This document shows positions 13,601-59,263 of a stretch of DNA of 64,000 nucleotides, in pieces. Position 1 is the stretch's first letter; the number at the start of each line of letters is the position of its first letter. This stretch comes from Kordia zhangzhouensis. Lineage in GTDB: Bacteria; Bacteroidota; Bacteroidia; Flavobacteriales; Flavobacteriaceae. The position numbers were made by a program, and so were the translations under genes. The notes under the pieces were generated by a model that searched no databases, was not told the DNA's origin, and worked only from the letters and a program-made list of their open reading frames with translations. The stretch covers positions 310,001-374,000 of the forward strand of contig NZ_LBMH01000004.1 in assembly GCF_001005305.1 (NCBI RefSeq). Reading direction: 5' to 3'.

Positions 13601-16600
13601 AGTATACGCCAAAAACAATATTGACCCGAGTACCATTAGTTATGTAGAAACTCATGGAACAGGAACAAAATTAGGTGATCCGATAGAATTACAAGCATTA
13701 GCAACTGTTTTTGGAGACAGTGCAGATAAGAAAAACTACTGTGCATTAGGTTCTGTAAAAAGCAACATCGGACATACAACAGCAGCAGCAGGAATTGCAG
13801 GAGTTCATAAAGTGTTGTTATCATTACAACATCAAACTTTACCACCAAGTTTACATGTAACAAAAGAAAACGCTCATTTTGACTTTAACAATTCTCCTTT
13901 TTATGTCAATACTGAAAAGAGAGAATGGAAAACGAATCCGCATACTTTACGTCGTGCGAGTGTAAGTTCATTTGGTTTTAGTGGAACAAATTCTCACTTG
14001 GTTATTGAAGAATACCCAAAACTTTCCAATTCACATACGAACGAGTCTCGATCTGTAATCATTCCTTTATCAGCTAAAACAGCTGTCCAACTCAAAGAAA
14101 AAGCGCTAGACCTATTAAACTTTATTAAGGAAAATAATAAAACAGAAACTGTAGAAGGAACAATCATTCATCATCTAGACCTTGAAGCGATAGCTTATAC
14201 TTTGCAAGTAGGAAGAGATGCAATGAAAGTACGTTTAGGATTCGTAGTAAACTCGATTGACCAATTAGAAAATAAACTACAAGCATATCTCAATAACGAA
14301 GCGACCAAAAGCGAAATATATGAAGGTACAGCAACAGCACAAAACGACACTCTTTCATTATTTAGCACAGATACCGACCTTCAAGAAGCCGTAGGAAATT
14401 GGATTGTAAACGGAAAGCTCGAAAAACTAGTAAAACTTTGGGTTAACGGATTAACAATTGAATGGAATAAATTTTACACCGATAAAAAACCAAAACGAGT
14501 AAGTTTGCCAACCTATCCTTTCGCAAAAGAACGCTATTGGGTAGAACAGCACGAATCTAAAGTTGCAAATAATGGAGCTCAAGTATCTTATGCGATGCAT
14601 CCGTTGGTACAACAAAACACATCAGATTTAAGCAAGCAAAGTTTTTCCTCAACATTTACAGGAGACGAATTTTTCCTAAAAGAACATTTAGTACATGGAA
14701 AAGCAATTCTCCCAGGAGTTGCCTACCTAGAAATGATTCGTGTAGCAATGGAAAAATCAATTCCAAGCTTAAAAGAGTCACATGATGTGGAGCTACAAAA
14801 TATTTTTTGGATACGCCCATTAGAAGTAGCAGATGTCACTGATGTAGAAATTTTGATTACACCATCAGAAAGTGATTTAATCTCCTTTGAAATTATTTCA
14901 AAAACAACTCAAGAAACAATTACAAATTGTCAAGGAGAAGCTATATATATACCTAAAACTTCAAGAGAAAGTATAGATATACAGCAGCTATACAATCAAC
15001 TTTCTACTCAAACGGAAGCTTCTCAATTCTATACATATTTTGAAAACACAGGAGTAGTTTATGGAAATGCATTTCAGGGAATTAATACGTGTTATTCAGA
15101 CACAAATGAATTAATAGCTACTTTATCACTACCGAAAGAAATTCAGTATACCGATGAAGTATTTGGATTGCACCCAAGCATACTAGACAGTGCGTTACAA
15201 AGTTGTGTTGCGTTATTAATAAACTTAGACGAATCTGCTAATGAAGCATTATTGCCGTACGCTGTTGAAAAAGTTCAAATCTTTTCATCAACTACACAAA
15301 AAATGTGTGCGTATGTTCGATTGGCAGAGGGCTCTACTGTAAATGATACGGTCAAAAAGATAGACATTACGCTCACTGACAGTGAAGGTGTTATTTGTGT
15401 GGAAATCAAAGGATTTTCAGCAAGATTTTTGAATGAAAGTGATACAAAAGAAACCAAACTTGAACAAAGTATAGAAGCGAAAGGATTAAAATACCTTGCG
15501 CCAATATGGAACTTAGCAACTTTACCTGCTACAGAAAAAATTAATCAGGAGGATAAAATACTTGTAATAGGTACTGAAAAATCGCAAAGTCATTGGTTAA
15601 AGACAGCGTTTTCGAATGTTGACTTTTTGAAAATATCTTCAAACTCAACGGTTGAAAGTATTGCCAACCAACTTCAAAACATCAATTTTGATCAATTGGT
15701 TTGGATGGCAACTGAAACAAGAAACCAACAAGTTGAAGGAAATGCAATAGAAGCACAACAAACAGGCTGCTTAGCAATATATCGTGCAGTCAAAGCGCTA
15801 TTAAAAATAAACTATGCAGATGCTCATTTGCGTTGGACATTCATCACACAAAACACGCAAAAAGTAAAACATACAGATCATATACAATTTACGCATGCAA
15901 GCGTAATAGGTCTAGTAGGATCACTAGCAAAAGAATATCCAAATTGGAGTATCCGATTGTTAGATGTAGATACAATATCTTCTCTCTCTGCGGTAACAAC
16001 TTTATCACTTCCGTGGAATGAACAAGGAAACGTTTGGGCATATCGTCAAGGGGAATGGTTCCAACAAGAGTTTGCTTATATAGCTAGTAATATAGCTCAT
16101 CCTACAACATATAAAGAAAATGGTGTATATGTAGTAATTGGTGGTGCAGGCGGACTTGGTGAAATTTGGTCAGAATACATGATTGAAAATTATAATGCGC
16201 AAACAATTTGGATAGGTAGGAAAGAATGTAATGAGGAAATTCAGCAAAAAATTGATTCTTTAGGAAACAAAGGAAAAGCGCCAATCTATATTTCAGCAGA
16301 CGCAACGAATAGAGCATCTCTAGAACATGCATATCAACAAATTTCAAAAAAACATCAAAATATCAACGGAATTGTACACTCTGCGATTGTCTTAAAAGAT
16401 CAGAGTTTACAAGCTATGGAAGAAGAGCGTTTCAAGCAAAGTTTGGCAGCCAAAGTAGATATCAGTATCAATATGGAACATGTGTTTGGTCAACTAGATC
16501 TTGATTTCATGTTATTCTTCTCCTCATTAACCTCTTTTGTTAAAGCGCCAGGACAATCAAACTATGCCGCAGGATGTACTTTCAAAGACAGTTTTGCGCA

Positions 16601-19600
16601 GTATTTGGATCAACAAAAAAACTACCCTGTAAAAACCATTAATTGGAGTTATTGGGGCAATGTAGGAATTGTTGCAGACTCGTTTTATAAAGAACGAATG
16701 GCACAACAAGGAATAGGTTCGATAGAACCAAAAGAAGGCATGGAAGCTCTAGAAATTTTGATGAGTTCAGATTTTGCACAAATGGCTTTGCATAAAATTC
16801 TCCATGAAGATGGAATTAAAAATGCAAACCTTGCGATTACAGAACAACTATATGTTTATGAAAAAGAAAATACAGTTCATTTAGCATCTATAGAAGAAAA
16901 ACTACCAGTACAAGATGCAGAAGAAAAAATAGCGGCATTAAATGCGGTTCAAATTCCAGAACAGATGAATACATTGGCGACAGAAATTGTCGTTTCAAGT
17001 CTTGTATCTGTTGGATTGCTAAAAGAAGGAAAAAGACGTATTTCAGATGTATCTTTACAAAAATCACCAGAATCATTTTTCGAACGCTGGTTAGCTGCTA
17101 CCATCTCATATTTACAAAAAGAAAACATACTAACAGCGAATGCTCAACTAAAGAAAAATGCCAAAACACTCGAAGTTGTTTGGGAACAATGGGAGCAAGC
17201 GAAAATAAAATGGAATGCAAATCCGAATTGGGAAAAGCAAGTTACCTTATTAGAAACCTGTTTAAGAGCATTACCAGCCATTTTAAAAGGAGAAATAAAA
17301 TCAACAGATGTCATATTTCCAAACTCATCTTTGCACTTAGTAGAAGGTGTGTACAAAGGAAGCTATCAAGTAGATTATTACAACGATGTATTGTGTAATA
17401 CACTACGAGTATGCGTTCAAGAATTCATAAAAACCAATCCTAACAAACAACTAAGAATTCTAGAAATTGGCGCAGGAACTGGAGGAACGACTGTCAAAGT
17501 TCTTCCAGTTTTAAAAGAATTTGGTACCGTAGTAAGCGAATATCGCTACACCGACCTGTCAAAAGCTTTCTTGCTTCATGCAGAAGAAAACTATTTACCT
17601 CAATTTCCTAATCTAACAACTTCTATTCTAGATGTATCCAAACCTATTGCTGGACAAACTGTAGAAAGTAATTACTACGACATTGTTATTGCAACCAACG
17701 TTTTACATGCTACACCAAACATGCGACAAACAATGCGTAATACGAAAGCTGTACTCAAAAATCAAGGTATTGTATTGATTAATGAAATGAGTACATGGAC
17801 GCTATTTACGCATCTAATTTTTGGATTACTTGAAGGTTGGTGGTTGTACGAGGATGATGCAATCAGAGTAGAAGGAAGTCCTGGTATTGCCCCAGAAAAT
17901 TGGGAGAAAATACTAAAAGAAGAAGGATTCAGTCAAACACTATTCCCTGTAGAAAAAGCGCATCTATATGGACAACAAGTTATTGCTGCAGTAAGCAATG
18001 GGAAAGTGATACAAAAAGTGCAACAAAAGCCGAAAAAAGTTTCTATACCAACAAAAGTGGTTTCAAAGGCTCAGACTACTAAAAGAACAATAAAATCAGT
18101 GTCTTCTAAAGGAAACTTACAACAACAAGCAACTACTTTCATTACAGAATTAGTCGCAAAGTCGCTCAAGATGAAACCTCAGCAAATCGAAGCTACACAA
18201 CCACTCGAAAATTACGGTTTAGATTCGATTATGGTGGTTCAGTTAACCAATCAATTCCGTAAAGTATTTCCAGAGATTACCAGTACTTTATTCTTTGAAG
18301 AAAATACAATTGATGGTTTGGTAAACTACTTTATAGAACACAAAAAAGAAGCGCTGACAGCATTAGTCGCTACTGATGAAACGGAAGAAGAAACAAATTC
18401 GTCTGTTGTTGAAACAGCAATCACTGCAGATGTTAAAAGACCTTTTGAAATTCTCAGAAAGACTCCTAAAACTATCCGTAAAGACGAATCGAGTCAACCA
18501 AATACGCGTTCTCAACTAGATGTAGCCATTATTGGAGTAAGTGGTCGTTATCCTAAAGCAGAAAACATAGATGCTTTCTGGAACAATTTAAGTAACGGTG
18601 AAAACTGTATCACTGAGATTCCAAAAGATCGCTGGAATTGGGAAGAATACTACGATCCTGAAAAAGGGAAAGCAGGAAAAATGTACACCAAATGGGGAGG
18701 ATTTTTAACGGATGTAGATAAATTTGATCCGCTATTCTTCAAAATTGCACCTAAAGATGCTAAAAAAATGGATCCGCAAGAACGATTGTTTTTGCAAACC
18801 TGTTATCATGCTATAGAAGATGCTGGATATACACCAAAAACTATAGGGAGCAATGATAAAATAGGAGTTTTTGCAGGAATTATGAATTCGCGATACACAC
18901 CGCAATCACTCCATTATTCAGTAGCCAATAGAGTATCATACACATTTAACTTCCAAGGACCATCTATGGCAGTTGACACGGCGTGCTCATCATCTCTTAC
19001 AGCAATTCATTTGGCATTGGAGAGTATTTATAATGGTACTAGCGAATGTGCCATTGCTGGAGGCGTAAACATTATCATAGATTCAGAACATTACGTACAG
19101 TTATCTGCTATGACAATGTTGTCTTCGGGGAATCAAAACAAAGCATTTGGTAAAAATGCTGATGGATTTGTTGATGCGGAAGGTGTTGGAGCCATCATCC
19201 TTAAACCGTTACACAAAGCAGAAGAAGATGGCGACCATATTTATGGTGTTCTTAAAGGAAGTGCAATCAATGCAGGAGGGAAGACCAATGGATACACAGT
19301 TCCAAATCCAAAAGCACAATCTGCAGTAATCACAAAAGCATTAGAAAATGCTAAAGTTAGCAAGGAAGAAATCAGCTATATTGAAGCACACGGAACAGGA
19401 ACAGCTTTAGGAGATCCAATAGAAGTTGCTGCTCTATCTCGTGCTTTACACACAGAAAATAATACACAAAAATGTGCGATTGGCTCTGTAAAATCAAATA
19501 TAGGTCACTGTGAATCAGCCGCAGGAATAGCAGGACTAACTAAAATTTTGTTACAACTTAAGCACCAACAGTTAGTTCCTTCGTTACATGCAGATGTTTT

Positions 19601-22600
19601 GAATCCTGAAATTGATTTTGAAAAAACACCATTCAAACTACAAAAAGCTACACAGACATGGCATAAACCAACGCGTACAATACATGGAACGATAGAATAT
19701 ATGCCACGAATGGCCGGAATTTCATCTTTTGGAGCAGGAGGAGCTAATGCTCATATAATTGTGGCAGAATATGAATCAGTAAAAGAAAGTTTTGCAAAGC
19801 ATTCACCTAATACAGAAGTAGCAATTGTTTTATCGGCTCGAAATCAATCACAACTCAAAGAAAAAGCCGCAGATTTAGTAGATTTTATTCATAAAAATGA
19901 AAACACCATAGATTTATTATCTATTGCTTACACGTTGCAGTTAGGACGAGAAGCTATGGACGAACGTCTGGCATTTACGGTAAAATCTTTACATGAACTT
20001 ACAGAGGTGTTAGAATCCTATTTGGGAGATGCTATCAATACCAAAAAATATAGTCAACATCAAATAAGAGAACATAAAGAAGCAGTTTTAGAATTTAAAT
20101 CTGACGTACATTTTGAGGAAAAATGGAATGCTTGGATACAAAGCAAAAAATATTCTGAATTGCTAGTTTGGTGGACCAAAGGAGTTGCTGTTAATTGGAG
20201 TGTTTTATACGAAGGAAAGAAACCACGACGAATCAGTTTACCAACGTATCCTTTCGCAAAAGAACGATATTGGGTAACACCTAACAAGCATCAAAGTTCA
20301 GTCACAATCGAAGCAATGTTGCATCCAATGATTCATCAAAATGTGTCGAGTGTGAATCAAACAAAATTCAACACAACTTTTTCTGGAGAAGAAACATTTA
20401 TCAAAAATTATTCTTTACAAAAAGAAACAAGTATTGTGCATGCTTTACCATTCATGGCAAGTGTTGAAATGATTACTGCGGCATTATCATTAGGAGTTGA
20501 AAAAGAAGAAAATCATTTGGTAGAACTGACGGAACATCATTTTGGCTCATTAATAGAAATTCATAAAGAGCAACATACAAAAACAGCTTTATTTGCTATT
20601 GATGATACGACAGTTGCTTACGAACTATCTTCTGAAAACACTCAAAAAGCAAAAATTCATGCGCAAGGTATTGCTCGAAGTATAGAAATAACAGAAACAG
20701 TATCAATAGATTTAGAAAGTCTGTATGCACAAATGACACATGTATTGGAAGGAAATCAATTATACAATGAAATTCTACCAAAAGTAATTGCATATGGTTC
20801 GTATTATCAATCAGTTCAAAAAATAGTTGTTGGAGACCAACAAATACTAGCCGAATTGCAAATTCCTACTGAATTTGAACAAGAAACTAACAAATTCGAA
20901 ATGCATCCAAGTTTGCTGGAAGGAGCTTTACAAGCGAGTTTGATGTTACTTGTAGATCAATTACCATTAACAATTGATAGTCTAATTCCAGTTTCAATTG
21001 ATACAATTCGCTGTATATCACCATTACAAAAAGAAGTAATAGCTTGGATTCGCTTCAGTAGCAATACCATTTTAAATGCAAGTGACATAAAAATAGATAT
21101 TGATATTTGTGATGTAGAAGGAAATAGCTGTGTAGAACTTATAGGACTTACACTTACCACTTCCGTAGAAGGCAAACCAGAAGAAACAAACACAAAAATA
21201 CTTGAAGTTACTACATCAAAAGAAATAGAGGAAACGAATATAGAGACTCCACAAGAAGTGTTTATTGAAAATATAACAACTCATAAAATCTCACTAACAG
21301 ATACCGCGTTCGATACCATAAAAACGGCTTCTCTGGAAAAACCATCTAGTATCAAACTAGTAGCACCTAATGCAATGATGTTGCAGGCAACTAGTGAAAC
21401 TTCGTTACAAAAAGTACGGGTTCACCTTTCCACAGAAAATACGCAACCCATCATACAAACAGTATCGAAAAGTGTCCGTTTAGTCAATCACCACAACGGA
21501 ATCTATAAATTACAATTGTTAGATTCTGAACTTACTGAGTCTATGATAGTCCAACTTGTTAATGGATTACAAACAGCTCAAAAACAGAAAGACATCAAAG
21601 TATTACTTATAGAAGGTTCTGAAAAAGAGTTTTTACATGGAGGAAACCCAATACATGAAGAAGCGCTACAATTTGAATTGTATAAGAAAATCAGTTCGTT
21701 TCCGTATCCAATTGTAGCAAACATACAAGGAAACACCAGCGGCGTAGGATTCATCGTAGCTTCTTTGTGTGACTTTATGATTGGTAGTCAGGAAAGTAAC
21801 TATCAATTTACGAATACTAGTGAGCATTTGTTTGCTAATACAGCACTTTTTGAACTATTCAACGAACGTTTTGGACAAACAGTAAGCATTGAATTTTTAA
21901 ACCCTACAAACAAACGTTTTACAGGAAAACAACTCATAGAAAAAGGATGGACGTTTCCAATCGTTACGTCCTCTAAAGTTTTACCTACAGTAGAAAGTTT
22001 AGTACAAGATTTGGCTAAGAAATCACAAAAATCATTGCGCTTACTCAAGCAACATTTAGCACGTCACATCGCTGAAAAAGCATCACAACTTACCACAATC
22101 ACAAAAAATAATGACAAAAAAACTTTTGAAACCGTAGAAATCTCAAATTCAAAAAGTCTTAAAATTGACTATAAAGACAATCAATTCTGTACGATAACAA
22201 TCAAGAAAACCAAGCAAGTTGGTGTTCAGAGTTTAGTTAAGGAAATTGTATCATTCTTTGAAAAGATTACTACCACTCAAAATCATGTGCCAATCATTCT
22301 AAAAAGTGATTATGAAACCTTTATTCCAGAAAAAGCTAAAGAGGAAGATTTGTATGCTCTTCTCGAACAAATACGTACGTGTAAATATCCAATAATTACA
22401 GTATTAGAAAACAATCCTACGGCAGAATCGTGGCTGATAAGTTTATTTGGAGATGAGGTAGTTTATAGTGAAAAAGCAAGCTTATCCGCCAATGGAATAC
22501 TTGCAAAAGAAACATTAGCCCAATTAGCAATACGCATTTTCACAAATCGTTTTGGAGAGTTGACTAGCAAAGAACTTCTTTTACTAGAAAAAACCTATAC

Positions 22601-25600
22601 TGCAAATGAATTGCAGACGTTAATTCCGATGGTTCAATCTACGGCAGTCAAAAATGTTATGACAACGGCTGAAGAAACTGCTATGTCATGGTCTGAATTT
22701 CCTAGAGTAGTCATCGAAACATGGAAAAATCAAATTCAAAAAAACTTTACAAGTCAGCTAAAAGAACTTCCAACTTGGAAAATTGAAGAAGTTCGCAAAG
22801 GAGAAGGTTCGAAAAAAGGACAAATTTCATTACAATCGCAAGTAGTCAAAGCTATTTCCCATGAAGGAGGAATCTTAGAAGTTCGGTTGGAAGAACGTGA
22901 ATCTAAGAACATGTTTACAAACGACTTTGTTTCTGGTGTCATAGAAGTATTTGAGTATATTAAAAATACTTCTCAATACAAAGCTGTACTTCTAACAGGA
23001 TATGATAACTATTTTGCATCAGGAGGAACTAAAGAAGGATTAGTTGCCATTCAAGAAGGGAAAAGCAAATTTACAGATACAAAAATCTATCAATTAGCAA
23101 TGGAATGTAATATTCCTGTCATTGCAGCGATGCAAGGTCATGCTATTGGAGGCGGTTGGTCATTCGGAATGTTTGCCGACTTTATCTTTTTCAGTAAAGA
23201 ACGCAAATACCTGAGTCCGTATATGAACTACGGATTTACTCCAGGAGCTGGAGCTACTTTTATTTTCCCTGAAACTTTAGGATATGATTTGGCTCGTGAA
23301 ACATTATTAACAGCCAATGAATTTTCAGGTAGCGAACTAAAAGCAAAAGGAATACCATTCGTGGTGTCAAGCAAAGATACTGTGGTTCAAGAAGCGATGC
23401 AATTGGCAAAACAATTGGTAAAAAATTCTAGAGAAACACTAATCGCTTTTAAAAATCAATTAGTGGCAAAAAAGCTTGGCAAAATTGAGAACATATATGC
23501 GTTGGAATTAGCGATGCACGAACAAACATTTGTCGGAGCTAACAATGCATTACAACAAATAGAGAAAAACTTTATTCACAAAAGTGGCACAACGGTTGCC
23601 ACCGAAAAATCTTCTGAAACTATGGATAAAGAACAAAAGAAATCACAAAGTAATCAAACGATAGAGAGTAAAGAAGTTTTACAAACCATCAAAAAGTTCC
23701 TTGCAGAAGAGTTGCATATGGAAACCAATCTGATTGATGAAGAAACACAATTTGTAGACTTAGGGATGGATTCGATTACAGGTGTTACGTGGGTGCGAAA
23801 AATTAACAATCAATTCCAAACGTCTATTGAAGCAACCAAAGTATATAGTTATCCTACATTAAATTCTTTTAGTAAATACATCAAAGAACAAATAGATACG
23901 ATAACTTTTACAGAAAAACCAAATCCAACACAAGTTGTAAATCATATAGTTAGTCCTACAGAGGAATTTGTAGAAGAATATGTGGAAGAAGTAGTGATCA
24001 ATACGATTAATCAAGGCGAAGTACTACAAGCAATCAAAACATTCCTAGCAGAAGAATTGCATATGGAAGTGCAAGATGTTGACGAACATACTCAATTTGT
24101 TGATTTAGGGATGGATTCGATTACAGGAGTTACTTGGGTACGTAAAATCAATACAAAATTTGATACTTCAATAGAAGCGACAAAAGTGTATAGTTATCCT
24201 ACTTTAACAGAGTTAAGTACATATGTAAAGCAAGAAATTGAAAAACGTACAGTGCCGACAAAAGTGGTCAAAAAAGTACAACGGAAAGTAGAGCAAAAAC
24301 CTGTGCAAGCAAAGAAAACACTGCCAAAACGCTCTGTTTTCAATCGTAATGGGCTGACTACATGGCAAGGAAAAACAACTCAAAAAGCTGCTTCAACTCA
24401 AAAAATAACCTCTTCCACCAAAAACGATTATCGTATTGCGGTAATAGGAATTGCAGGACAATTTCCAAAGGCTAAAAATGTAGCAGAATTTTGGGAGAAT
24501 CTAACCACAGGTAAAAACTGTATCAGTGAGATTACACCAAACAGGTGGGACAACACTAAATATTATCAACCGGGAAATCCTGCGCCAGGAAAAACCAATA
24601 GCAAATGGATGGGAGCATTGGAAAATTACGATCAATTTGATCCATTATTCTTCAATATATCTCCAGTGGAAGCCGAAAGTATGGATCCACAACAACGTTT
24701 ATTCTTGCAATCATGTTGGCATACTATTGAAGATGCAGGTTACAATACCGATTCCTTATCAGGAACCAAATGTGGAGTCTTTGTAGGTTGCGGCGCAAGT
24801 GATTATCATCAATTATCCAAAGAACATCGATTAAGTGCACAAGGTTTTACGGGTGGTTCTTCATCAATCCTAGCCGCACGTATTTCATATTTATTAGACT
24901 TACAAGGTCCGTGCTTATCAATTGATACGGCTTGTTCTTCATCGTTAGTAGCATTGGCAACAGCTTGTGACAATCTAGTTTCAGGAAATTGTAATGTAGC
25001 TTTAGCAGGAGGAGTTGGAATTATGTCAACACCAGCAATGCATATTATGACTTCACAGGCAGGAATGCTATCACAAGATGGTAAATGCCATACATTTGAC
25101 CAAAATGCAAATGGGTTTGTACCTGGAGAAGCAGTCGGTGTTGTAATGTTAAAACGCCTAGAAGATGCAGAACGTGACAATGACCGAATTTATGGTGTTA
25201 TAGAAGGTTGGGGCGTGAATCAAGACGGAAAAACCAATGGTATCACAGCTCCAAATGCTGAGTCGCAAGCAGGTTTAGAAACAGATGTATATGAAAAATT
25301 TAATATTGATCCTGCACAAATTCAGTTAATAGAAGCACACGGAACAGGCACCAAATTAGGAGATCCTATCGAAGTTGATGCGCTCAAACAATCGTTCAAA
25401 AAATATACTGATAACAAATCATATTGTGCATTAGGCTCAGTAAAAAGTAATATTGGTCATACCATGTGGGCAGCGGGAATTTCAGGATTTATCAAAGTAA
25501 TTCTTTCTTTAAAAAATCAGCAATTACCACCTACCATCAATTTTACCAAACTCAATGAACATATCAATTTACACAACAGTCCTTTCTATGTAAATGACAA

Positions 25601-27296
25601 GTTAAAAAATTGGAACATAAGCTCAAGTGAGAAGCGACAAGCGGCAATTAGTTCCTTTGGTTTTAGCGGAACAAACGCACACTTAGTAGTGGCAGAATAT
25701 CAACCACAGGAACAGTTTCAGCAAAAAAATGTACAGTACAAAGTACATGGATTTGCGATTCCGTTGGCGGCTAAAAATAAAGCGCAGTTAATACAAAAAG
25801 TACAAGATTTGATTACCTCTGTAGAAAGTGATATGCATAGCTTAAAGTTACAAGAATTAGCATACACATTACAAGTGGGCAGAGAGCCAATGGAAACACG
25901 TGTAGGTTTCTATACAAACAGTATAGAAGAACTTTTAACACAGCTGAAAGACTTTGTAAAAGGTAACAGTTTTGTAAAAGGGATGTATGTGGGCGATACA
26001 AATGAAAACAAAGACGAATTACGCCTTTTTGCTCAAGATGAAGACCTTAAAGAAACTGTAGTTCATAAATGGATTAAAGAAAACAAACTATCGAAGCTGT
26101 TAGAATTATGGGTAAAAGGATTGAATTTTAATTGGAATGTATTGTATGGAGAACACAAACCAAAGCGAATTGGTTTACCAGGCTACCCATTTGCACAAAA
26201 ACGATATTGGATAGAAACTACAGAAGCGTATACTAACACTACAATACAGTCTGCTACCACAACACAACAACTGCATCCTCTTGTGCATACCAACACATCC
26301 GACTTTTCACAACAGCAATTCAGTAGTGTGTTTGTAGGGGAAGAATTCTTCTTGCGAGATCATCAAGTCAAACTAAATGACACATTGCAAAAAGTATTGC
26401 CAGGTGTTGCTTATTTAGAAATGGCGCGTACTGCAGTTTCTTTATCACTATCAGCGGATGATTCAGATGCAATTATCGAATTGAAAGACATCATGTGGAT
26501 GCATCCAATAGCCATACAAGAGTCAAAACAAGTAACGGTTGTATTATTTGAAAATGAAGAAAATGAACAAATTGATTTTGAAATCAGAAGTTTCATTTCG
26601 ACAGATGCAGATACACAACAAGAAATCATTCACTGTAAAGGACAAGCAGGATATAAAATAGCACCAAAAGCACCTCAACTTTCTATTGATTCTCTTGCCT
26701 CACAAATGAATCAAAAAACAATAGAAAGCACTGAATTGTACACTTTGTTTACAAACTCAGGATTGCAATATGGTGAAGCACACCAAGGAATACAATCATT
26801 ACATATAGGAAAAAATCAGGCACTGGCAAAAGTACACTTGCCAGAAATACTTCAAAATGAGAACAATTTATTTGTACTACATCCTAGTATAATGGATAGT
26901 GCTTTCCAAGCGACTATTGGACTCATGATTGATGCTGGAAAACTTCCTCAAAAAGCATTGTTACCATTTTTAGTTGAAACTGTAACAGTTTACTCTAAAT
27001 GTACAGAAGTCATGTACGCTTGGGTGCGCAAATCGTCCAACTTTAATGGAAATGAACAAACAATTAAAGTAGATATTGATTTGTGCGATTCCGAAGGAAA
27101 TATTTGTATACAAGTACAAGGATTGATTTCACGACCGTTGCAAACATCAAATACTTCAAACTATGTAGTAACAACTACGACAGCAAAAAACGGAAAACAA
27201 AATGGTCTTTCGTTTGACGAAACCTATCATAAAAATCTAATAAAGAGTTACCTAAACAACGAAGTGTCACTGGATGATATTTTAGAACTCGTATAG
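3180..27296 (+). CDS. Giant trans-AT polyketide synthase PKS1 (loading module, M1-M4, first half of M5)
   Basis: One uninterrupted 8038-residue protein, roughly 0.9 MDa. Domain order with key residues: adaptor/pseudo-MT (1-203); GNAT (204-400; W228, H368); ACP (S453); KS1 (C687); KR (Y1445); ACP (S1598); KS2 (C1862); dead DH (H2345 kept, Asp replaced by E2506); KR (Y2923); ACP (S3079); KS3 (C3357); DH (H3836, D4003); KR (Y4462); cMT (LEIGAGTGG, 4761-4769); ACP (S5016); KS4 (C5269); dead DH (Y5744, E5914); two degenerate crotonase domains (about 6097-6300 and 6326-6486); an intact ECH2-like domain (about 6560-6800); two ACPs (S6865, S6980); KS5 (C7252); DH (H7728, D7906); C-terminal helical docking segment (about 8012-8038). 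There is no AT, so malonyl units must come from a trans-AT, probably the gene at 60586. Each KS ends in the LPTYPF-type linker usual for trans-AT systems. The stop is seven bases before PKS2, which resumes module 5, so the two are surely co-transcribed. Confidence 0.95.
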   Translation: MISEKYLNDLRSAITEIFNQSLDQQPQHIVNVGCAEGMLLQEIYQTISSNTLRGKHLKDNPLYFYGVDSSQNAINAIVKKIDTKKVNARFFQGDIHQVEGLKKALQALEIDKDQKVVYIHSFVNPKTFPKNNSDKATWEKYLGVYADQMHNGQLLFLNEHTTSTINTEEFITCAAAVGLFTEKLSKRYQDSKNGKEITFHHITKREYIIRAASVNDLEALDTLEKLCWQSHIRASKEAIEQRVHTFPQGQFVLEKQETVVGVIYSQQIADKAQLEKATMDTVHQLHNTNGNVMQLLAVNIHPNVQVFNYGDQLLEFMLQRCSLLAGIEEIVAVSICKNYNKGDGYSFDEYIQLQGENQDPIMAFHQNHGAKIVKSLANYRERDIINEGNGVLVQYTNLNERVHASKKEAINFKEVSNESSIQTFILETVAHLLAVDTTNVDTTQPLMEMGLNSVDLQMLQRQIEKRIEQRLEAGFFFEYNTVSKVLDYVGKKLALDVTQKINPANETTNQSSSSQVKNNITDTDVAIIGMSCKLPGNITSVEDLWNVLKAEKSVIGSYPKQRGSWPKSSEFTGIDQGGFMEDAAAFDAAFFRISPKEAQITDPQQRILLELAWACLEDAGITPEKLVGSQTGVFVGASNADYSRKVQDAKLEVEAHHAVGSSLAILANRLSYYFDLSGPSLLIDTACSSSLVAIHTALQSLHAGECETALVGGVNLICHPDLSIAYHKAGMLSPEAKCKVFDKEANGYVRSEGAVVMLLKPLANAIKDQDQIHAVLKGSAINHGGLAAGLTVPNPKKQSELLMSAWKNAGISSKDISYLEAHGTGTSLGDPIEVQGIKNAFENYQSSALPKQCSIGSIKSNVGHLESAAGMTGMLKVILAMKHKQLPASIHFSELNPKIHIENSPIHIQNTLKSWDAKHPFIAGVSSFGSGGTNAHVVIEEFISEEQSKINTGKHPNLFVLSAKNEKRLRAYAEKVLTWINTYASTVHYTDAIYSWQVGRTAMKHRLAIQAATFEELQEKLNKWIHKVADKTTWDSLKTVSNQQKNLPTEITQHTISSLAEYWTSGHVVNWEKYYKTSEKPKLISLPTYPFAKEYYWIDETTTSARVLEPIKEKSTIYGTPQWKAIKSKGRSTNDENYFSEKYMLLCGFPSSVGKRLKRALPATNFSIISSKKKDVAKIYTEIAIGCFENIQKIVKEKSAEKLLIQVVVPTSSSNSLSFGVSGMLRTLHTEYPSIYGQIICVDPRIKLSQLSNQLIENQSQPSELFVKYEENERKVWRWDTIVNPTKEEEIAFKEKGIYLLTGGLGGLGTIFIEEINKQTSSATIIVTGRSELTLEKKNKIAELAGEKKNIHYQKNTLETYDEVKNLITFITETHGKLDGIIHCAGMVQDNFIIKKSTEEFEQVLTPKVIGTIHLDRATKDEKLDFFVLFSSIFSVVGNVGQVDYATANGFMDQFAATRNALVNQEERSGHTLSINWPFWKDGGMEIHQSSLDIIEEETGMVPMETKTGIAAFYHGLTQKHSQLLVMEGEKDKLLATLEGLKPSNTNVDQSQHYTETDRETIFQKTLHKTKELFGEVLGFAVDKVDEHESFSAYGIDSIFINQLNQKLSKTFDTISKTIFFEYQTLHDITTYLVTEFTETCAKWTNIALDEFSTIAENKTHYTAVNSSKNEEENASRNSQKSSHHKEPIAIIGISGIYPEAKNIDEFWENLKEGKNSITEIPSTRWSLEDFYEPDVQKAVQEGKSYSKWGGFIDEFSQFDPLFFGISPREALNIDPHERLFLQESWRALEASGYTKNDLKEKYHQKVGVFAGVTKNGFELKAPFYRTSNQKFQPRSSFSSVANRLSYVLDIKGPSMPIDTMCSSSLTAIHEACEHIHRGECSIAFAGGVNLYLHPSTYSYLSSQHMLSIDGQCKSFGLGGNGFVPGEGVGVVLLKPLSEAVKDKDVIHGVILSTHVNHGGKTNGYTVPSPASQSELIKTAIQKAGIHARDISYIEAHGTGTELGDPIEVDGLKKAFEAYTNEKNYCAIGSVKSNIGHLEAAAGISGLTKVLLQMKHGTIVPSLHAENLNPNINFERTAFQVATHEHSWERPFVNDKEKPRIAGISSFGAGGSNAHIILQEYIPDTVKTDNENSLGRGEGKVLIPLSARNKEQLKQRTIALLDAVRKSTNDSNFNLTSLAYTLQVGREAMNERLGFVVSSLEELEEKLLQYINDEQEIEAFDQGNKNYPDKTFNLLKKEAEFQQTIERWITDKKLTNLLMLWVNGLDLDWYKFYNSEEKIARINLPTYPFAKEEYWIQTENEEKGVGNSAGEAEKINSLLHQNTSTIFEQRYSSHFKGDEFFLKAHYNSEEKHTKKILPAFSCLEMARVGAIHATNAIHEEEQLILHNVIWSTPFILADDKNISVAFTAALPTKDETVALHFDIFSEENEEEIVHCQGKVTFSDQVLPHKQNIQQLLTDLEAQTIRNHSNGLNELYASSHKLMAMIDLPENILQYQEELILHPKLIEYIRNVLTEIESSTHESYAIGCDEIQVIQPLEKEVCIVISLNDTLVLEENIFTLQIDICDTLGNVCVRFINFSFGKQLSSVETEPHKQAIQKLFFTPTWKENPIKGTQKRNVAQYHTVLLDFPQVKKESLEAAIAHHHCTHIELTKESLHEHYHQYALQCFDLIKSIQKKKPTGAQHIWFVIPMKESHVLYAGIYGLMRTAMLENTQITGQILLVSPEATENEILQLLKDQTVQNDDLVIKYEHKKRYTFQWEEQPLKATTNEVVYKDQGVYVITGGLGGLGTIFCKEILQKTQNATIILTGRSELSNSKKEILRKLNQFQGTVQYKQLDLSKEEEVQNFFIEIIQEYTQLNGILHCAGMIADNFIVEKSAEEYSKVLTPKVDGTIYIDKATAEIDIDFIVFFSSIAAAIGFVGQADYAAANSFMDQFAYYRNDLVQKGQRKGKTLSINWPLWKDGGMGIDEATEQMVRQTIGMQSLETQTGLDAFYTSLTTNCSQSLVVEGISEIIKSHVLNEKSTKDAAVSISENSHLEQEIPQYSLESVQEELQQILKEILDIKSTEVSIEQTFVDMGLNSILGVELAIAINNTFGTAISNVIVYDYPNIKELAGYVSSHLKKHTKPVKKSIANVTKEIKAVARIDQKTTSNFGTKYPVLSRRRATIHANVLKNGYALTNASTSHKHTEEDKIAIIGMSGKYPKADNLQQYWENLENGVDAVSEIPNSRWNIDSYYDPDPEKEGKIYCKWMGMLNDVDVFDPLFFKISPQEAMYMDPEHRLFLQESYKAFEDAGYSGESLKEIKCGVYLGLEQSEYSWHIKQNNAISPNITSNNAAIAAARIAYFLNLKGPAITIDTACSSSLVAMHIACKSLLNNEIDMALTGGVRLWLGPETYMGMCQARMLSPDGKCKTFDDSANGFVPGEGVGTLVLKRLKDAEADNDNILGVILGSGINQDGKTNGITAPSVKSQIALEREVYAKNNIDPSTISYVETHGTGTKLGDPIELQALATVFGDSADKKNYCALGSVKSNIGHTTAAAGIAGVHKVLLSLQHQTLPPSLHVTKENAHFDFNNSPFYVNTEKREWKTNPHTLRRASVSSFGFSGTNSHLVIEEYPKLSNSHTNESRSVIIPLSAKTAVQLKEKALDLLNFIKENNKTETVEGTIIHHLDLEAIAYTLQVGRDAMKVRLGFVVNSIDQLENKLQAYLNNEATKSEIYEGTATAQNDTLSLFSTDTDLQEAVGNWIVNGKLEKLVKLWVNGLTIEWNKFYTDKKPKRVSLPTYPFAKERYWVEQHESKVANNGAQVSYAMHPLVQQNTSDLSKQSFSSTFTGDEFFLKEHLVHGKAILPGVAYLEMIRVAMEKSIPSLKESHDVELQNIFWIRPLEVADVTDVEILITPSESDLISFEIISKTTQETITNCQGEAIYIPKTSRESIDIQQLYNQLSTQTEASQFYTYFENTGVVYGNAFQGINTCYSDTNELIATLSLPKEIQYTDEVFGLHPSILDSALQSCVALLINLDESANEALLPYAVEKVQIFSSTTQKMCAYVRLAEGSTVNDTVKKIDITLTDSEGVICVEIKGFSARFLNESDTKETKLEQSIEAKGLKYLAPIWNLATLPATEKINQEDKILVIGTEKSQSHWLKTAFSNVDFLKISSNSTVESIANQLQNINFDQLVWMATETRNQQVEGNAIEAQQTGCLAIYRAVKALLKINYADAHLRWTFITQNTQKVKHTDHIQFTHASVIGLVGSLAKEYPNWSIRLLDVDTISSLSAVTTLSLPWNEQGNVWAYRQGEWFQQEFAYIASNIAHPTTYKENGVYVVIGGAGGLGEIWSEYMIENYNAQTIWIGRKECNEEIQQKIDSLGNKGKAPIYISADATNRASLEHAYQQISKKHQNINGIVHSAIVLKDQSLQAMEEERFKQSLAAKVDISINMEHVFGQLDLDFMLFFSSLTSFVKAPGQSNYAAGCTFKDSFAQYLDQQKNYPVKTINWSYWGNVGIVADSFYKERMAQQGIGSIEPKEGMEALEILMSSDFAQMALHKILHEDGIKNANLAITEQLYVYEKENTVHLASIEEKLPVQDAEEKIAALNAVQIPEQMNTLATEIVVSSLVSVGLLKEGKRRISDVSLQKSPESFFERWLAATISYLQKENILTANAQLKKNAKTLEVVWEQWEQAKIKWNANPNWEKQVTLLETCLRALPAILKGEIKSTDVIFPNSSLHLVEGVYKGSYQVDYYNDVLCNTLRVCVQEFIKTNPNKQLRILEIGAGTGGTTVKVLPVLKEFGTVVSEYRYTDLSKAFLLHAEENYLPQFPNLTTSILDVSKPIAGQTVESNYYDIVIATNVLHATPNMRQTMRNTKAVLKNQGIVLINEMSTWTLFTHLIFGLLEGWWLYEDDAIRVEGSPGIAPENWEKILKEEGFSQTLFPVEKAHLYGQQVIAAVSNGKVIQKVQQKPKKVSIPTKVVSKAQTTKRTIKSVSSKGNLQQQATTFITELVAKSLKMKPQQIEATQPLENYGLDSIMVVQLTNQFRKVFPEITSTLFFEENTIDGLVNYFIEHKKEALTALVATDETEEETNSSVVETAITADVKRPFEILRKTPKTIRKDESSQPNTRSQLDVAIIGVSGRYPKAENIDAFWNNLSNGENCITEIPKDRWNWEEYYDPEKGKAGKMYTKWGGFLTDVDKFDPLFFKIAPKDAKKMDPQERLFLQTCYHAIEDAGYTPKTIGSNDKIGVFAGIMNSRYTPQSLHYSVANRVSYTFNFQGPSMAVDTACSSSLTAIHLALESIYNGTSECAIAGGVNIIIDSEHYVQLSAMTMLSSGNQNKAFGKNADGFVDAEGVGAIILKPLHKAEEDGDHIYGVLKGSAINAGGKTNGYTVPNPKAQSAVITKALENAKVSKEEISYIEAHGTGTALGDPIEVAALSRALHTENNTQKCAIGSVKSNIGHCESAAGIAGLTKILLQLKHQQLVPSLHADVLNPEIDFEKTPFKLQKATQTWHKPTRTIHGTIEYMPRMAGISSFGAGGANAHIIVAEYESVKESFAKHSPNTEVAIVLSARNQSQLKEKAADLVDFIHKNENTIDLLSIAYTLQLGREAMDERLAFTVKSLHELTEVLESYLGDAINTKKYSQHQIREHKEAVLEFKSDVHFEEKWNAWIQSKKYSELLVWWTKGVAVNWSVLYEGKKPRRISLPTYPFAKERYWVTPNKHQSSVTIEAMLHPMIHQNVSSVNQTKFNTTFSGEETFIKNYSLQKETSIVHALPFMASVEMITAALSLGVEKEENHLVELTEHHFGSLIEIHKEQHTKTALFAIDDTTVAYELSSENTQKAKIHAQGIARSIEITETVSIDLESLYAQMTHVLEGNQLYNEILPKVIAYGSYYQSVQKIVVGDQQILAELQIPTEFEQETNKFEMHPSLLEGALQASLMLLVDQLPLTIDSLIPVSIDTIRCISPLQKEVIAWIRFSSNTILNASDIKIDIDICDVEGNSCVELIGLTLTTSVEGKPEETNTKILEVTTSKEIEETNIETPQEVFIENITTHKISLTDTAFDTIKTASLEKPSSIKLVAPNAMMLQATSETSLQKVRVHLSTENTQPIIQTVSKSVRLVNHHNGIYKLQLLDSELTESMIVQLVNGLQTAQKQKDIKVLLIEGSEKEFLHGGNPIHEEALQFELYKKISSFPYPIVANIQGNTSGVGFIVASLCDFMIGSQESNYQFTNTSEHLFANTALFELFNERFGQTVSIEFLNPTNKRFTGKQLIEKGWTFPIVTSSKVLPTVESLVQDLAKKSQKSLRLLKQHLARHIAEKASQLTTITKNNDKKTFETVEISNSKSLKIDYKDNQFCTITIKKTKQVGVQSLVKEIVSFFEKITTTQNHVPIILKSDYETFIPEKAKEEDLYALLEQIRTCKYPIITVLENNPTAESWLISLFGDEVVYSEKASLSANGILAKETLAQLAIRIFTNRFGELTSKELLLLEKTYTANELQTLIPMVQSTAVKNVMTTAEETAMSWSEFPRVVIETWKNQIQKNFTSQLKELPTWKIEEVRKGEGSKKGQISLQSQVVKAISHEGGILEVRLEERESKNMFTNDFVSGVIEVFEYIKNTSQYKAVLLTGYDNYFASGGTKEGLVAIQEGKSKFTDTKIYQLAMECNIPVIAAMQGHAIGGGWSFGMFADFIFFSKERKYLSPYMNYGFTPGAGATFIFPETLGYDLARETLLTANEFSGSELKAKGIPFVVSSKDTVVQEAMQLAKQLVKNSRETLIAFKNQLVAKKLGKIENIYALELAMHEQTFVGANNALQQIEKNFIHKSGTTVATEKSSETMDKEQKKSQSNQTIESKEVLQTIKKFLAEELHMETNLIDEETQFVDLGMDSITGVTWVRKINNQFQTSIEATKVYSYPTLNSFSKYIKEQIDTITFTEKPNPTQVVNHIVSPTEEFVEEYVEEVVINTINQGEVLQAIKTFLAEELHMEVQDVDEHTQFVDLGMDSITGVTWVRKINTKFDTSIEATKVYSYPTLTELSTYVKQEIEKRTVPTKVVKKVQRKVEQKPVQAKKTLPKRSVFNRNGLTTWQGKTTQKAASTQKITSSTKNDYRIAVIGIAGQFPKAKNVAEFWENLTTGKNCISEITPNRWDNTKYYQPGNPAPGKTNSKWMGALENYDQFDPLFFNISPVEAESMDPQQRLFLQSCWHTIEDAGYNTDSLSGTKCGVFVGCGASDYHQLSKEHRLSAQGFTGGSSSILAARISYLLDLQGPCLSIDTACSSSLVALATACDNLVSGNCNVALAGGVGIMSTPAMHIMTSQAGMLSQDGKCHTFDQNANGFVPGEAVGVVMLKRLEDAERDNDRIYGVIEGWGVNQDGKTNGITAPNAESQAGLETDVYEKFNIDPAQIQLIEAHGTGTKLGDPIEVDALKQSFKKYTDNKSYCALGSVKSNIGHTMWAAGISGFIKVILSLKNQQLPPTINFTKLNEHINLHNSPFYVNDKLKNWNISSSEKRQAAISSFGFSGTNAHLVVAEYQPQEQFQQKNVQYKVHGFAIPLAAKNKAQLIQKVQDLITSVESDMHSLKLQELAYTLQVGREPMETRVGFYTNSIEELLTQLKDFVKGNSFVKGMYVGDTNENKDELRLFAQDEDLKETVVHKWIKENKLSKLLELWVKGLNFNWNVLYGEHKPKRIGLPGYPFAQKRYWIETTEAYTNTTIQSATTTQQLHPLVHTNTSDFSQQQFSSVFVGEEFFLRDHQVKLNDTLQKVLPGVAYLEMARTAVSLSLSADDSDAIIELKDIMWMHPIAIQESKQVTVVLFENEENEQIDFEIRSFISTDADTQQEIIHCKGQAGYKIAPKAPQLSIDSLASQMNQKTIESTELYTLFTNSGLQYGEAHQGIQSLHIGKNQALAKVHLPEILQNENNLFVLHPSIMDSAFQATIGLMIDAGKLPQKALLPFLVETVTVYSKCTEVMYAWVRKSSNFNGNEQTIKVDIDLCDSEGNICIQVQGLISRPLQTSNTSNYVVTTTTAKNGKQNGLSFDETYHKNLIKSYLNNEVSLDDILELV
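4746..8090 (+). other. Module 1: KS1-KR-ACP
   Basis: KS1 has the DTACSSS nucleophile (C687), EAHGTGT and SNVGH histidines, and ends at LPTYPFAKEYYW. It is followed directly by a KR with its N-terminal structural half (TGGLGGLG at about 1302; LFSS; Y1445 in VDYATANG) and an ACP (GIDS, S1598). No DH is present, so a beta-hydroxyl is predicted. The KR has Asp in the LDD-loop position (MVQDN), suggesting B-type stereochemistry. All KRs in this window share that Asp. Confidence 0.85.
8235..12540 (+). other. Module 2: KS2-DH(inactive)-KR-ACP
   Basis: KS2 reads DTMCSSS (C1862). The DH-like domain keeps a His (H2345) but has AHYNSEEKHTKKILPAFS in place of the HxxxGxxxxP loop, and HPKLIEY where active DHs read HPSILDS, so the catalytic Asp is Glu (E2506). 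It is predicted inactive. The KR (TGGLGGLG; Y2923) and ACP (GLNS, S3079) look functional, so the beta-hydroxyl should be retained. Confidence 0.8.
12745..18350 (+). other. Module 3: KS3-DH-KR-cMT-ACP
   Basis: KS3 (C3357) is followed by a DH with textbook HLVHGKAILP (H3836) and HPSILDSALQ (D4003). The KR (GGAGGLG; Y4462 in SNYAAGC) is of the type preceding methyltransferases. The C-methyltransferase has LEIGAGTGG (4761-4769) and a downstream ATNVLHAT. The ACP reads GLDS (S5016). Predicted output: an alpha-methylated alpha,beta-alkene. Confidence 0.85.
18519..24245 (+). other. Module 4 (beta-branching): KS4-DH(inactive)-pseudoECH-pseudoECH-ECH-ACP-ACP
   Basis: KS4 (C5269) precedes a DH-like domain with both catalytic residues lost (Tyr at 5744, Glu at 5914) and no KR, so the beta-ketone stays available. 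A KPSSIKL linker leads to three consecutive crotonase-like regions: nt about 21468-22075 (QGNTSGVG instead of QGHAIGGG), about 22155-22640 (no QGH motif) and about 22855-23580 (intact, TGYDNYFASGG and QGHAIGGGW). The last resembles the stand-alone ECH2 at 56515. Two near-identical ACPs follow, each GMDSITGVTW, whose Trp at Ser+6 is the beta-branching ACP signature. Confidence 0.8.
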
Positions 27297-28990
27297 CATA
27301 ATCATGATGAAAGAACAACTAAGAACCATATTTTTAGACTTATCGAGTAAAAAACTTTCTGAGGCTGAAGCTTTAGAAAAAATAAGAGCAATCAAAGCAG
27401 CACAAAAAAGCAGTGATGTCAATACGCTCTACGCAAGTCCAACATGGAAGCTCGCAGAAAATCCGCAAAACAATCAATCAAAAATTGCCCAGCATCATTT
27501 GATTTGGTTACATGCAACATCTAAAAATCAACAAAAAATCTCAGAACAGCTACCGCAAGTCACGCAACATACCATAACAAGTTCAAAAGAAACTCTAGCA
27601 GAAAACTACACTGAAATTGCGTTATCCTGTTTTAAAATCATACAAAATTTGTTGACTAATAAGCTTCAAGGAACAACTTATGTGCAAATTGTTGTAGGCA
27701 CTTCCGTAGAAGAAAAATTATATCAAGGACTAGCAGCATTATTAAAAACAGCCACACTTGAAAATCATAACCTAATAGGGCAGTTAATAGTAACGGAAGA
27801 ACAGAACTCGGTTAAAGAAATAGTTCAACAACTAACGTCAGAACTAAAACAATCAACAGATGCGCTTATACGATACGAAGGAGGAAAAAGACATGTAAAA
27901 CAATTAGTAGAAATTCACGATAATTCAATCCAAACTCATAGTAACTTCAGAGAAAATGGAGTATACCTTATTACGGGAGGATTTGGCGGACTTGGAATTG
28001 CTTTTGCCAAAAAAATATTACAACAATTAACAAAGGTAAATATAGTCTTAACTGGACGCTCTCAGCTTACAGCAGAGAAGAAACAACTACTGGAACAACT
28101 TTCATCAGAACATAAAAAAGTTCAATACATCTCATTAAATGTAGCGGACAAAAATCAGACGCGAAAAGTAATAGAAACGATTCTTCATGATTATAAAAAA
28201 TTGCACGGAATTATTCATGCAGCTGGAATCAATAAAGACAATTTTATTCTCAAAAAATCAATCGCTGAATTCAAAGAAGTACTCCAAGCAAAAGTCTCAG
28301 GCGCATACAATATTGATGAAGTAACTAAAGAAATTGATTTAGATTTCATCATGCTTTGTTCGTCCATTGCTTCTTGGTTTGGAAATCCAGGACAAGCAGA
28401 CTATGCAGTTGCTAATGCATTTATGGATGAATATGCCGAGTATCGAAATGCATTGGTCAAAAAAGGGAAGCGAAGCGGTAAAACATTGACTATCAATTGG
28501 CCTCTTTGGGAAGAAGGCGGTATGGAAATTGATGAAGAAATCAAAGCAAAACTATTTGAACAAACGGGGTTTATCCCTCTAGATACGCATACAGGAAATA
28601 CAATTTTTCAATATGCTTTACAAACAGATCAAACTCAAATACTTGGTGTAAAAGGAAATATCAAAAAAATAAAAGAAACACTATTTACCAAAGTTACAAG
28701 TGTTCAAAAAGAAGAACTAAAAACCATAAAGCCTCTAGATGCAAATGAGCTTAGTGTAAAAACAACAGGATTTCTTCGTGACGAATTTTCTAAGATTATC
28801 AAATTGCCTGCACGTGAAATAGAAACTCATCTCGCTTTAGAAAAATATGGGATTGACTCTATTTTGGCAATGAATTTAACAAGCCAATTAGAAAAAACTT
28901 TTGGAAAACTTTCCAAAACATTATTCTTTGAATACCATACTATTGATGAACTTAGCGCGTATTTTACTAAGAACTTTGCATCTGTATTGA
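24427..28990 (+). other. Module 5, split over two proteins: KS5-DH // KR-ACP
   Basis: KS5 (C7252; GVNQDGKTNGIT region) follows a beta-branching module. The DH has H7728 and D7906. PKS1 then ends in an acidic amphipathic tail (SLDDILELV). PKS2 opens with a helical segment (about residues 1-35, KKLSEAEALEKIRAIK), then a KR (TGGFGGLG; Y367) and ACP (S519). The tails look like the helical docking domains of split trans-AT modules. Predicted output: an alkene. Confidence 0.8.
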
Positions 28991-43319: not shown

Positions 43320-43610
43320 CCAAGAATATACAAAACAAAGAGTCTCTCTCAAAAAAATATACCACATGAACAGTGCAACCAAAACACGAATACAAAACCG
43401 TCTTATCATAAGTTTGGCAGATGCACTCTATTTAGAGCCTTCTGAAATTGATGCCGACAAATCGTTTACAGATTTAGGTTTAGATTCAATTGTTGGTGTT
43501 GAATGGATCAAAACGATTAACAAGGAATTTGATTTAGAACTTTCATCAACAAAAGTTTACGATTACTCAACGGTAAAGCAATTGGCAGGATATGTTGCAG
43601 ATGAATTGGC
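40018..43610 (+). other. Module 8 (beta-branching), tandem ACPs split between PKS3 and PKS4
   Basis: KS8-DH(dead)-ACP ends PKS3 and a second ACP begins PKS4. Both ACPs carry GLDSIVGVEW and are alike over their length (DALYLEP, ELSSTK, YDY). No KR and no ECH are embedded, so HMGS, ECH1 and the stand-alone ECH2 must all act in trans. The KPS-I-L linker that precedes the crotonase blocks in M4 and M6 is present here without the block. Confidence 0.75.
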
Positions 43611-56503: not shown

Positions 56504-56514
56504 AACAATCAAAT

Positions 56515-58244: not shown

Positions 58245-58262
58245 TGAAAAAGAAATGTGCGT

Positions 58263-59017: not shown

Positions 59018-59263
59018 ATGTCAAAAGAAGAAGTATACAACGTTGTACAAGAAACTATTATGGATGTGCTTCCTGATGTAGAAAAAGAGAACATTGCCAT
59101 TGAAAAACAGCTAAAAGATATTGGAGCCAATTCTATTGATAGAATGGAAATCGTAACAATGTCTATGCGCGAACTCAATATAAAAATTCCATTAATGAGC
59201 TTTGCTGGTGTAAACAATATTGAAGGGTTAGTAAATGTATTACATGAAAATGTAAATAGCTAA
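59018..59263 (+). CDS. Stand-alone acyl carrier protein (beta-branch donor ACP)
   Basis: An 81-residue ACP with the phosphopantetheine Ser in GANSIDRME (S39). It lacks the Trp at Ser+6 seen in the acceptor ACPs of M4, M6 and M8. Between the HMGS/ECH genes and the decarboxylating KS, it fits the donor ACP (AcpK-like) that carries malonyl, then acetyl, to HMGS. It must be activated by a phosphopantetheinyl transferase, probably the one at 62643. Confidence 0.9.
   Translation: MSKEEVYNVVQETIMDVLPDVEKENIAIEKQLKDIGANSIDRMEIVTMSMRELNIKIPLMSFAGVNNIEGLVNVLHENVNS

Follow-up and report, generated by a model that had tools for sequence, protein, structure and literature searches.

To our knowledge, it is not settled how an enzyme that is a trimer can work within an assembly line that is a dimer, and the locus described here raises this question within a single protein chain. 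The window, that is, the whole stretch of 64,000 nucleotides analysed (Kordia zhangzhouensis, contig NZ_LBMH01000004.1, positions 310,001 to 374,000), encodes PKS1, a trans-acyltransferase (trans-AT) polyketide synthase (PKS) in which three crotonase folds of the enoyl-CoA hydratase (ECH) type follow one another: two without an active site (ψECH a and ψECH b, here a and b) and an intact ECH2 (c), together termed the trio. The trio is real, conserved and under selection, and its double dead ECH is a variation on the known pair of a truncated ECH and an ECH2. As to what two dead crotonases do ahead of a live one, we give an even chance to each trio being an in-cis beta-branching decarboxylase unit in which a and b are structural partners of c, a mechanism that is directly testable.

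Three crotonase folds in one open frame

Domains a, b and c of PKS1 occupy a single open frame (21450–23579) and are each matched separately by Pfam ECH_1 above its cut-off of 27 bits (a: 63.7 bits, E 2e-17; b: 34.0 bits, E 2.5e-8, over profile positions 69–215 of 251 only; c: 175 bits, E 2e-51), which places three consecutive crotonase stretches where the sequence-only reading of this DNA had put them. The top NCBIfam family for all three is PRK07110, the polyketide-synthase ECH, at 96.5, 47.2 and 281.7 bits for a, b and c, respectively, and c alone among the PKS1 trio domains exceeds its cut-off of 215; c also matches PksI at 252.5 bits and CurF at 176 bits. Aligned profile to profile with ECH2 sequences, b gives a probability of 99.05 (E 2e-18) over residues 10–210 of its 223 and is therefore a whole crotonase fold and no fragment; it is also similar to a (98.5). 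The order of strands and helices is alike in a, b and c in both AlphaFold runs, and a and b combine scores above the curated cut-off with the repeated beta-beta-alpha order of the crotonase superfamily. Chance similarity or mis-translation is ruled out, as all three domains exceed the Pfam cut-off and eight copies of the trio exist, and a non-crotonase fold for b is ruled out by the Pfam, NCBIfam and profile-profile matches. The profile search of each third against crotonase families, by which the first two might have proved to be something else, thus returned crotonase folds for both.

A second complete trio, overlooked in the earlier reading, lies in PKS2 (32104–34209) and is 55% identical to that of PKS1 over 710 amino acids; its c domain likewise exceeds the PRK07110 cut-off (275.5 versus 215 bits).

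Active-site residues of the dead and live domains

Catalytic columns were mapped on PksI, with residue numbers and roles after the available portion of PMC7501309, and read in eight trios (four genomes, two each). The equivalents of PksI H230, F136, K80, F81 and G66 are present in c in all eight copies, and the G108 equivalent of c is Gly in 4/4 PKS1-type and Ala in 4/4 PKS2-type copies from the four species. In a and b the H230 equivalent is missing throughout (0/8 and 0/8), the column being occupied by D, E, A, N, T, V or I, and both domains stop short of the C-terminal helix on which the catalytic His lies. A gap spans the lid loop (PksI Q76–D83) in every a and every b; the G108 column is never Gly (a: V, I or T; b: E or K), and the G66 column is Gly in two of eight a domains and in no b domain. 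The claim that only the last of the three is intact therefore holds, as His, lid loop and G108 Gly are gone from 8/8 a and 8/8 b. The motifs reported before are also as described, with QGNTSGVG in a, neither FASGG loop nor QGH..G motif in b, and both in c. Counting a column as kept when six or more of the eight copies have it, a retains 18 and b retains 11 of the 50 columns that are invariant across 13 ECH2-type rows; hydrophobic positions, Gly, Pro and Asp make up most of these.

With its PRK07110 score, H230, G66 and aromatic lid, c has the marks of a beta-branching ECH2 decarboxylase; a and b lack the catalytic His of such an enzyme and, save for the G66 Gly of two a domains, its oxyanion-hole residues. 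Judged by these residues, c is best read as a modular ECH2, a putative in-cis decarboxylase. It had been called a close match to the stand-alone ECH2 encoded in the window, yet the two are only 44–46% identical and fall into different groups of the tree.

The least decayed a domain is that of the Kordia genome G201, whose two copies score 152.3 and 145.4 bits with PRK07110 and have a four-residue KNTL-type stretch missing from the other species.

Distribution of the trio

The trio system is present in 4 of 11 Kordia genomes, one of them Kordia algicida OT-1, with two trios each, and the same four alone match PRK07110 with an E value of 1e-40 or lower. Every a/b pair, eight in all, has an open frame, and the order of the three domains is identical in every copy. 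Among 199 genomes drawn from the family, the trio was found only in the window's own genome; 397 genomes yielded no trio beyond two Kordia genomes, and among 395 genomes of the phylum it was again confined to the window's own, the other listed matches being single crotonase-sized stretches (at most four candidates were scored per genome in the 397- and 395-genome scans). Beyond Bacteroidota, the search took in plasmid records, PDB sequences, viral contigs and literature, together with one genome-contig scan using two narrow peptide patterns. From 72,556 plasmids searched, none of the 666 matching records covers 80% of the trio query in one place. Viral contigs gave six crotonase ORFs in three scans and none in three others, of no use for deeper alignments.

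In open-licence literature we found no report of the three-ECH arrangement with a double dead pair. According to the available portion of PMC9600693, LasH and LasO ECHa of the lasonolide system are truncated and inactive, and a truncated ECH just upstream of ECH2 is common with exo-beta-methylene formation. The earlier suggestion that such an arrangement was unknown is thus too strong, for a single truncated inactive ECH ahead of ECH2 had already been described there. The new part seems to be the second dead domain; in the genomes searched, the doubled dead pair was confined to Kordia. Earlier counts of trans-AT PKS clusters in this genus are given in the accessible parts of PMC10734526 and PMC7477175.

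Relatives were sought among 17 plasmid loci with an ECH2-type domain, chosen from two sets of listed matches (20 of 666 and 25 of 850) with near-duplicates and plain fatty-acid ECHs omitted. Six of these have PKS sequence ahead in frame, and in two of the six, from Nostoc sp. UHCC 0926 and Ensifer canadensis, a dead ECH directly precedes ECH2. The Nostoc ψECH scores 62.0 bits with the Kordia a profile versus 9.9 with the b profile, and is closer to a by these profile scores only, the b profile being the more diverged; the Ensifer ψECH scores 18.6 bits with the a profile and, at 16.4 bits, lies under the Pfam cut-off. In the tree, Kordia c and the ECH2s of these two duos form one group (84/84), and the Kordia stand-alone ECH2, PksI, CurF and several other embedded ECH2s form a separate one (100/98). 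An Eleftheria terrae plasmid shows a different layout, with an embedded ECH2 behind, not ahead of, two beta-branching-like ACPs and with no dead ECH.

Selection, exchange between modules and origin

Pairwise dN/dS (Nei–Gojobori; rough values, as several dS exceed 1) is 0.11–0.35 for a and 0.19–0.37 for b, over eight pairs each. Eight open copies in the same order, at dN/dS of 0.11–0.37, argue that a and b are no debris. The proposal that dead folds accompany a live ECH2 as scaffold rather than debris is borne out to this extent, given eight conserved copies that have all lost the same active-site parts and have dN/dS far below 1.

In three of four species, the two copies of a and of b in one genome are closer to each other than to their orthologues, with within-genome identities (a/b) of 95.1/92.6% in K. 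algicida, 78.5/75.8% in G205 and 75.2/76.5% in G201. In three of the four species, c sorts by position, and between copies its C-terminal half, where the His and the GFTPG loop lie, exceeds a dS of 1 in 4/4 species. Sliding identity in K. algicida delimits a homogenised tract from about 90 residues ahead of a through the first half of c, along which dS is 0.21, 0.10 and 0.26 and then rises to 1.06 in the second half of c, likely a gene-conversion tract that ends inside a domain. The two K. algicida stretches concerned are 7034–9118 of one locus (L037) and 10001–12085 of the other (L036). The KS end is also more similar between copies than elsewhere, and the ACPs are 41–54% identical between copies in the two comparable species (window genome and G201; three rows of this module comparison, Ka_2, G205_2 and G201_1, are cut at locus ends, which removes the K. 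algicida and G205 ACPs from it). On this pattern, a and b look exchangeable from one module to the other, which would befit a generic scaffold, and the second half of c does not.

A recent triplication of c is not supported as the origin of the trio, for over all species the tree separates a, b and c into three groups (83/72, 100/99 and 94/100, respectively). Neither is an ECH1 origin, as b aligns with ECH1 at an hhalign probability of 3%, and a at 97% over 96 columns (E 1e-10) versus 99.8% (E 1.5e-27) with ECH2. Because of long branches, the tree does not order a and b relative to the ψECHs of Nostoc and Ensifer.

Structure prediction

AlphaFold modelling of the 710-residue trio with nine sequences gives a predicted template modelling score (pTM) of 0.60 and a mean predicted local distance difference test (pLDDT) value of 76.5; with three sequences, pTM is 0.37 and pLDDT low. 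By our own estimate, unlinked independent domains would give a pTM of ∼0.38. Of the nine aligned sequences, three span the whole trio and one spans b–c, so that a pTM of 0.60 is no covariation result. Low-pLDDT linkers, at about residues 208–223 and 439–452, join the domains.

Module context and the beta-branching cassette

Both trio modules have the domain order ketosynthase (KS), dehydratase (DH), a, b, c and two acyl carrier proteins (ACPs) with the motif GxDSx5W (Table 1). When the window's nine DH domains are aligned, the catalytic His column has Tyr in the PKS1 trio module, Val in the PKS2 trio module, Tyr at the end of PKS3 and His in the other six; the DH ahead of the PKS1 trio is thus dead, as had been supposed. 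The aligned column replaces the plain HxxxGxxxxP pattern, which is too strict for these domains because DHs with the His plus an insertion fail it too. The third dead DH precedes the ACP pair split between PKS3 and PKS4, so that dead DHs occur at all three beta-branching sites and at these only. Pfam matches no ECH in PKS3 or PKS4. Downstream lies the HCS cassette (HCS, an ECH1-type crotonase, a stand-alone ECH2, a small ACP and a stand-alone KS). The surroundings of c hence include both acceptor ACPs with GxDSx5W and an HCS cassette, in which the ECH1, donor ACP and KS0 roles are assigned provisionally. By analogy with the proposal for kalimantacin (available portion of PMC12560621), the window may comprise two in-cis and one in-trans decarboxylation sites.

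Elsewhere in the window, the start of PKS1 (3189–3623) resembles a piece of an AprA MT2-like methyltransferase (Pfam Methyltransf_36, 113.8 bits), which hints at an unusual starter unit, and an ORF at 58257–58970 in the HCS cassette region resembles, by eye (HSHFDH), a metallo-beta-lactamase-fold hydrolase.

Table 1. Features of the window bearing on the two trios and on beta-branching.
Feature	Position	Strand	Basis
PKS1, 8038 aa trans-AT PKS with first trio	3180..27296	+	open frame; Pfam domains
KS of PKS1 trio module	18519..19592	+	Pfam ketoacyl-synt, Ketoacyl-synt_C
DH-fold domain, catalytic His to Tyr (PKS1)	20322..21179	+	PKS_DH_N 24.5 bits (under cut-off 27), PS-DH; His column
ψECH a, crotonase fold without active site	21450..22145	+	Pfam ECH_1 63.7 bits; PRK07110 96.5 bits; catalytic columns
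ψECH b, strongly diverged crotonase fold without active site	22146..22814	+	Pfam ECH_1 34.0 bits; hhalign to ECH2 99.05; secondary structure as in a, c
ECH2 c, intact modular domain of decarboxylase type	22815..23579	+	PRK07110 281.7 bits; PksI 252.5 bits; G66, K80, F81, F136, H230 equivalents
Tandem beta-branching acceptor ACPs, GMDSITGVTW twice (PKS1)	23649..24227	+	Pfam PP-binding, 2 stretches; motif
PKS2, 3288 aa, with second trio	27304..37170	+	open frame; trio comparison
DH-fold domain, catalytic His to Val (PKS2)	30979..31815	+	PKS_DH_N, PS-DH; His column
Second trio ψECH a	32104..32778	+	sequence comparison with PKS1 trio
Second trio ψECH b	32779..33444	+	sequence comparison with PKS1 trio
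Second trio ECH2 c, Ala at PksI G108 equivalent	33445..34209	+	PRK07110 275.5 bits; column alignment
Tandem beta-branching ACP motifs behind second trio, GLDSITGVTW twice	34372..34740	+	motif
Third beta-branching ACP pair, GLDSIVGVEW twice, split PKS3 end/PKS4 start	43152..43512	+	motif; Pfam
HMG-CoA-synthase-like HCS	54486..55745	+	Pfam HMG_CoA_synt_N, _C
Stand-alone ECH1-type crotonase, putative role from gene order	55733..56503	+	Pfam ECH_1 199.8 bits
Stand-alone trans ECH2	56494..57261	+	PRK07110 384.2 bits
Small ACP, likely cassette donor ACP (by eye)	59018..59263	+	sequence
Stand-alone KS, likely decarboxylating KS0, Ser at Cys position (by eye)	59285..60562	+	Pfam; sequence

Proposed mechanism and alternatives

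In the mechanism that we propose, the trans cassette (donor ACP, KS0, HCS and ECH1) would build a 3-methylglutaconyl chain on the tandem ACPs, from which c, the modular ECH2, would remove CO2. Domains a and b are not expected to carry out decarboxylation chemistry, since they have lost the His with the C-terminal helix, the lid loop and the second oxyanion glycine (mostly the first too), although their crotonase core is kept. They would instead fold against c as permanent partners, such that one chain gives the three-fold surroundings that PksI gets by homotrimerising; with one active site per chain, the two-fold PKS dimer would be spared a clash with a three-fold enzyme. The specific geometry, which we hold possible at somewhat less than even chances, is a crotonase trimer in one chain: two fused-in subunits would have lost catalysis and become a fixed scaffold, and there would be two pseudo-trimers in a PKS dimer, perhaps stacked into a pseudo-hexamer whose two-fold axis is that of the dimer. 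This cis pseudo-trimer is suggested by the count of exactly three domains, by the AlphaFold pTM of 0.60 and by the homotrimeric state of relatives (PMC7501309, PMC12560621 and PMC10006238, in the portions available), among which PksH and PksI are described as trimeric in crystal and solution (PMC7501309) and BonI as trimeric (PMC12560621).

Several observations weigh against this proposal, chief among them that the known duos (lasonolide, Nostoc and Ensifer) cannot close a trimer in cis; a dead ECH may therefore be useful without completing one. The pTM of 0.60 is also compatible with the packing of two of the three domains, and does not itself show a three-fold arrangement. Among the 50 Foldseek matches listed per search, the good ones are single-domain only. 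Gly remains at the G66 column in two of eight a domains, and because backbone amides form the oxyanion hole, loss of its glycines alone proves little. Domain b evolves fastest, with a mean pairwise identity of 45% versus 54% for a and 72% for c. Within the window's own genome, the two copies are just 53.3% (a) and 37.8% (b) identical, with no recent exchange, and the exchanged tract of K. algicida takes in the first half of c as well.

The strongest alternative, to which we assign a modest chance only, is that a and b form a platform for ACP docking or gating, which would hold the tandem ACPs near c, or exclude the stand-alone ECH2, so that the product is made in cis. Such control would suit a window in which embedded ECH2s coexist with a trans ECH2 and one beta-branching ACP pair, the third, sits in PKSs that have no ECH match; competition between in-cis and in-trans ECH2 has been proposed for kalimantacin (PMC12560621), and Art21 of aurantinin is a known non-decarboxylating ECH that steers an assembly line (PMC11425284), both as given in the accessible parts of these reports. 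However, docking would not need two dead domains. Nor do the sequences suggest module-specific ACP binding: a and b are homogenised across the modules of three species out of four, and the ACPs stay module-specific (41–54%) where comparable. It is improbable that a and b pair across chains, with the stand-alone ECH2 or with the c of either the other PKS chain or the second trio protein: mixed assembly would fit with the likeness of a and b between trios of the same genome, seen in three of four species, and with the low-pLDDT linkers between domains, and nothing speaks directly against it beyond PksH and PksI being reported without mixed trimers in the available portion of PMC7501309.

Decay of former ECH domains into a passive spacer would account for the divergence of a and b and for the loss of their catalytic parts; we consider it very unlikely given eight open copies, a kept order, dN/dS of 0.11–0.37, a homogenised tract centred on a and b and a retained core. 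Crotonase folds host many reactions, and a or b might in principle catalyse another step, but with lid loop and His gone and no Gly at the G108 position (V, I or T in a; E or K in b), we give this hardly any credence, although no search aimed at newly conserved polar residues was made. Should the one-chain trimer prove true, embedded ECHs would have a natural way round the C3-in-C2 symmetry problem. At ∼710 residues, the trio is a compact construct for asking if dead crotonases take the place of partners in a homotrimer. It could also account for the truncated ECHs described ahead of ECH2 in other PKSs, and may help those who move beta-branching modules between PKSs to decide what moves along.

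Comparison with known systems

The comparisons with published systems below draw on the available portions of the reports cited. PksI shares with Kordia c the kept catalytic columns but is a stand-alone homotrimer, whereas the ECH2 of CurF is embedded. Art21, the ECHQ-TE of aurantinin, is likewise ECH2-like, and the product is still shaped although decarboxylation is lost; it differs in its catalytic His to Gln replacement, in a fold modelled as intact and in its fusion to a thioesterase (TE) in a discrete protein (PMC11425284). The trios have no Gln at this column and are followed by ACPs. Modules of the onnamide/pederin family resemble the Kordia modules in that a second ECH is present (OnnB) or, in some members, is without conserved regions, but at most two ECH domains are named in the portion available (PMC6855096). 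The kalimantacin mECH provides the likeness of an embedded ECH2 acting in cis next to a trans ECH2 (PMC12560621).

Closer in architecture are the Nostoc and Ensifer duos, which run KS, ψECH, ECH2, ACPβ, ACPβ, and of which the Nostoc ψECH has SLCDF and ERFG in common with Kordia a (by eye); both duos differ in having no b, and their ψECH stands behind the KS with no DH match. Lasonolide LasH and LasO, compared by description only, contain ECHa–ECHb pairs in which a short ECH without oxyanion-hole residues directly precedes ECH2 in one chain of a beta-branching module (PMC9600693). The Kordia trios likewise have a truncated, dead ECH immediately before ECH2 within the chain, and differ in that two dead domains, rather than one, precede ECH2 in 8/8 copies.

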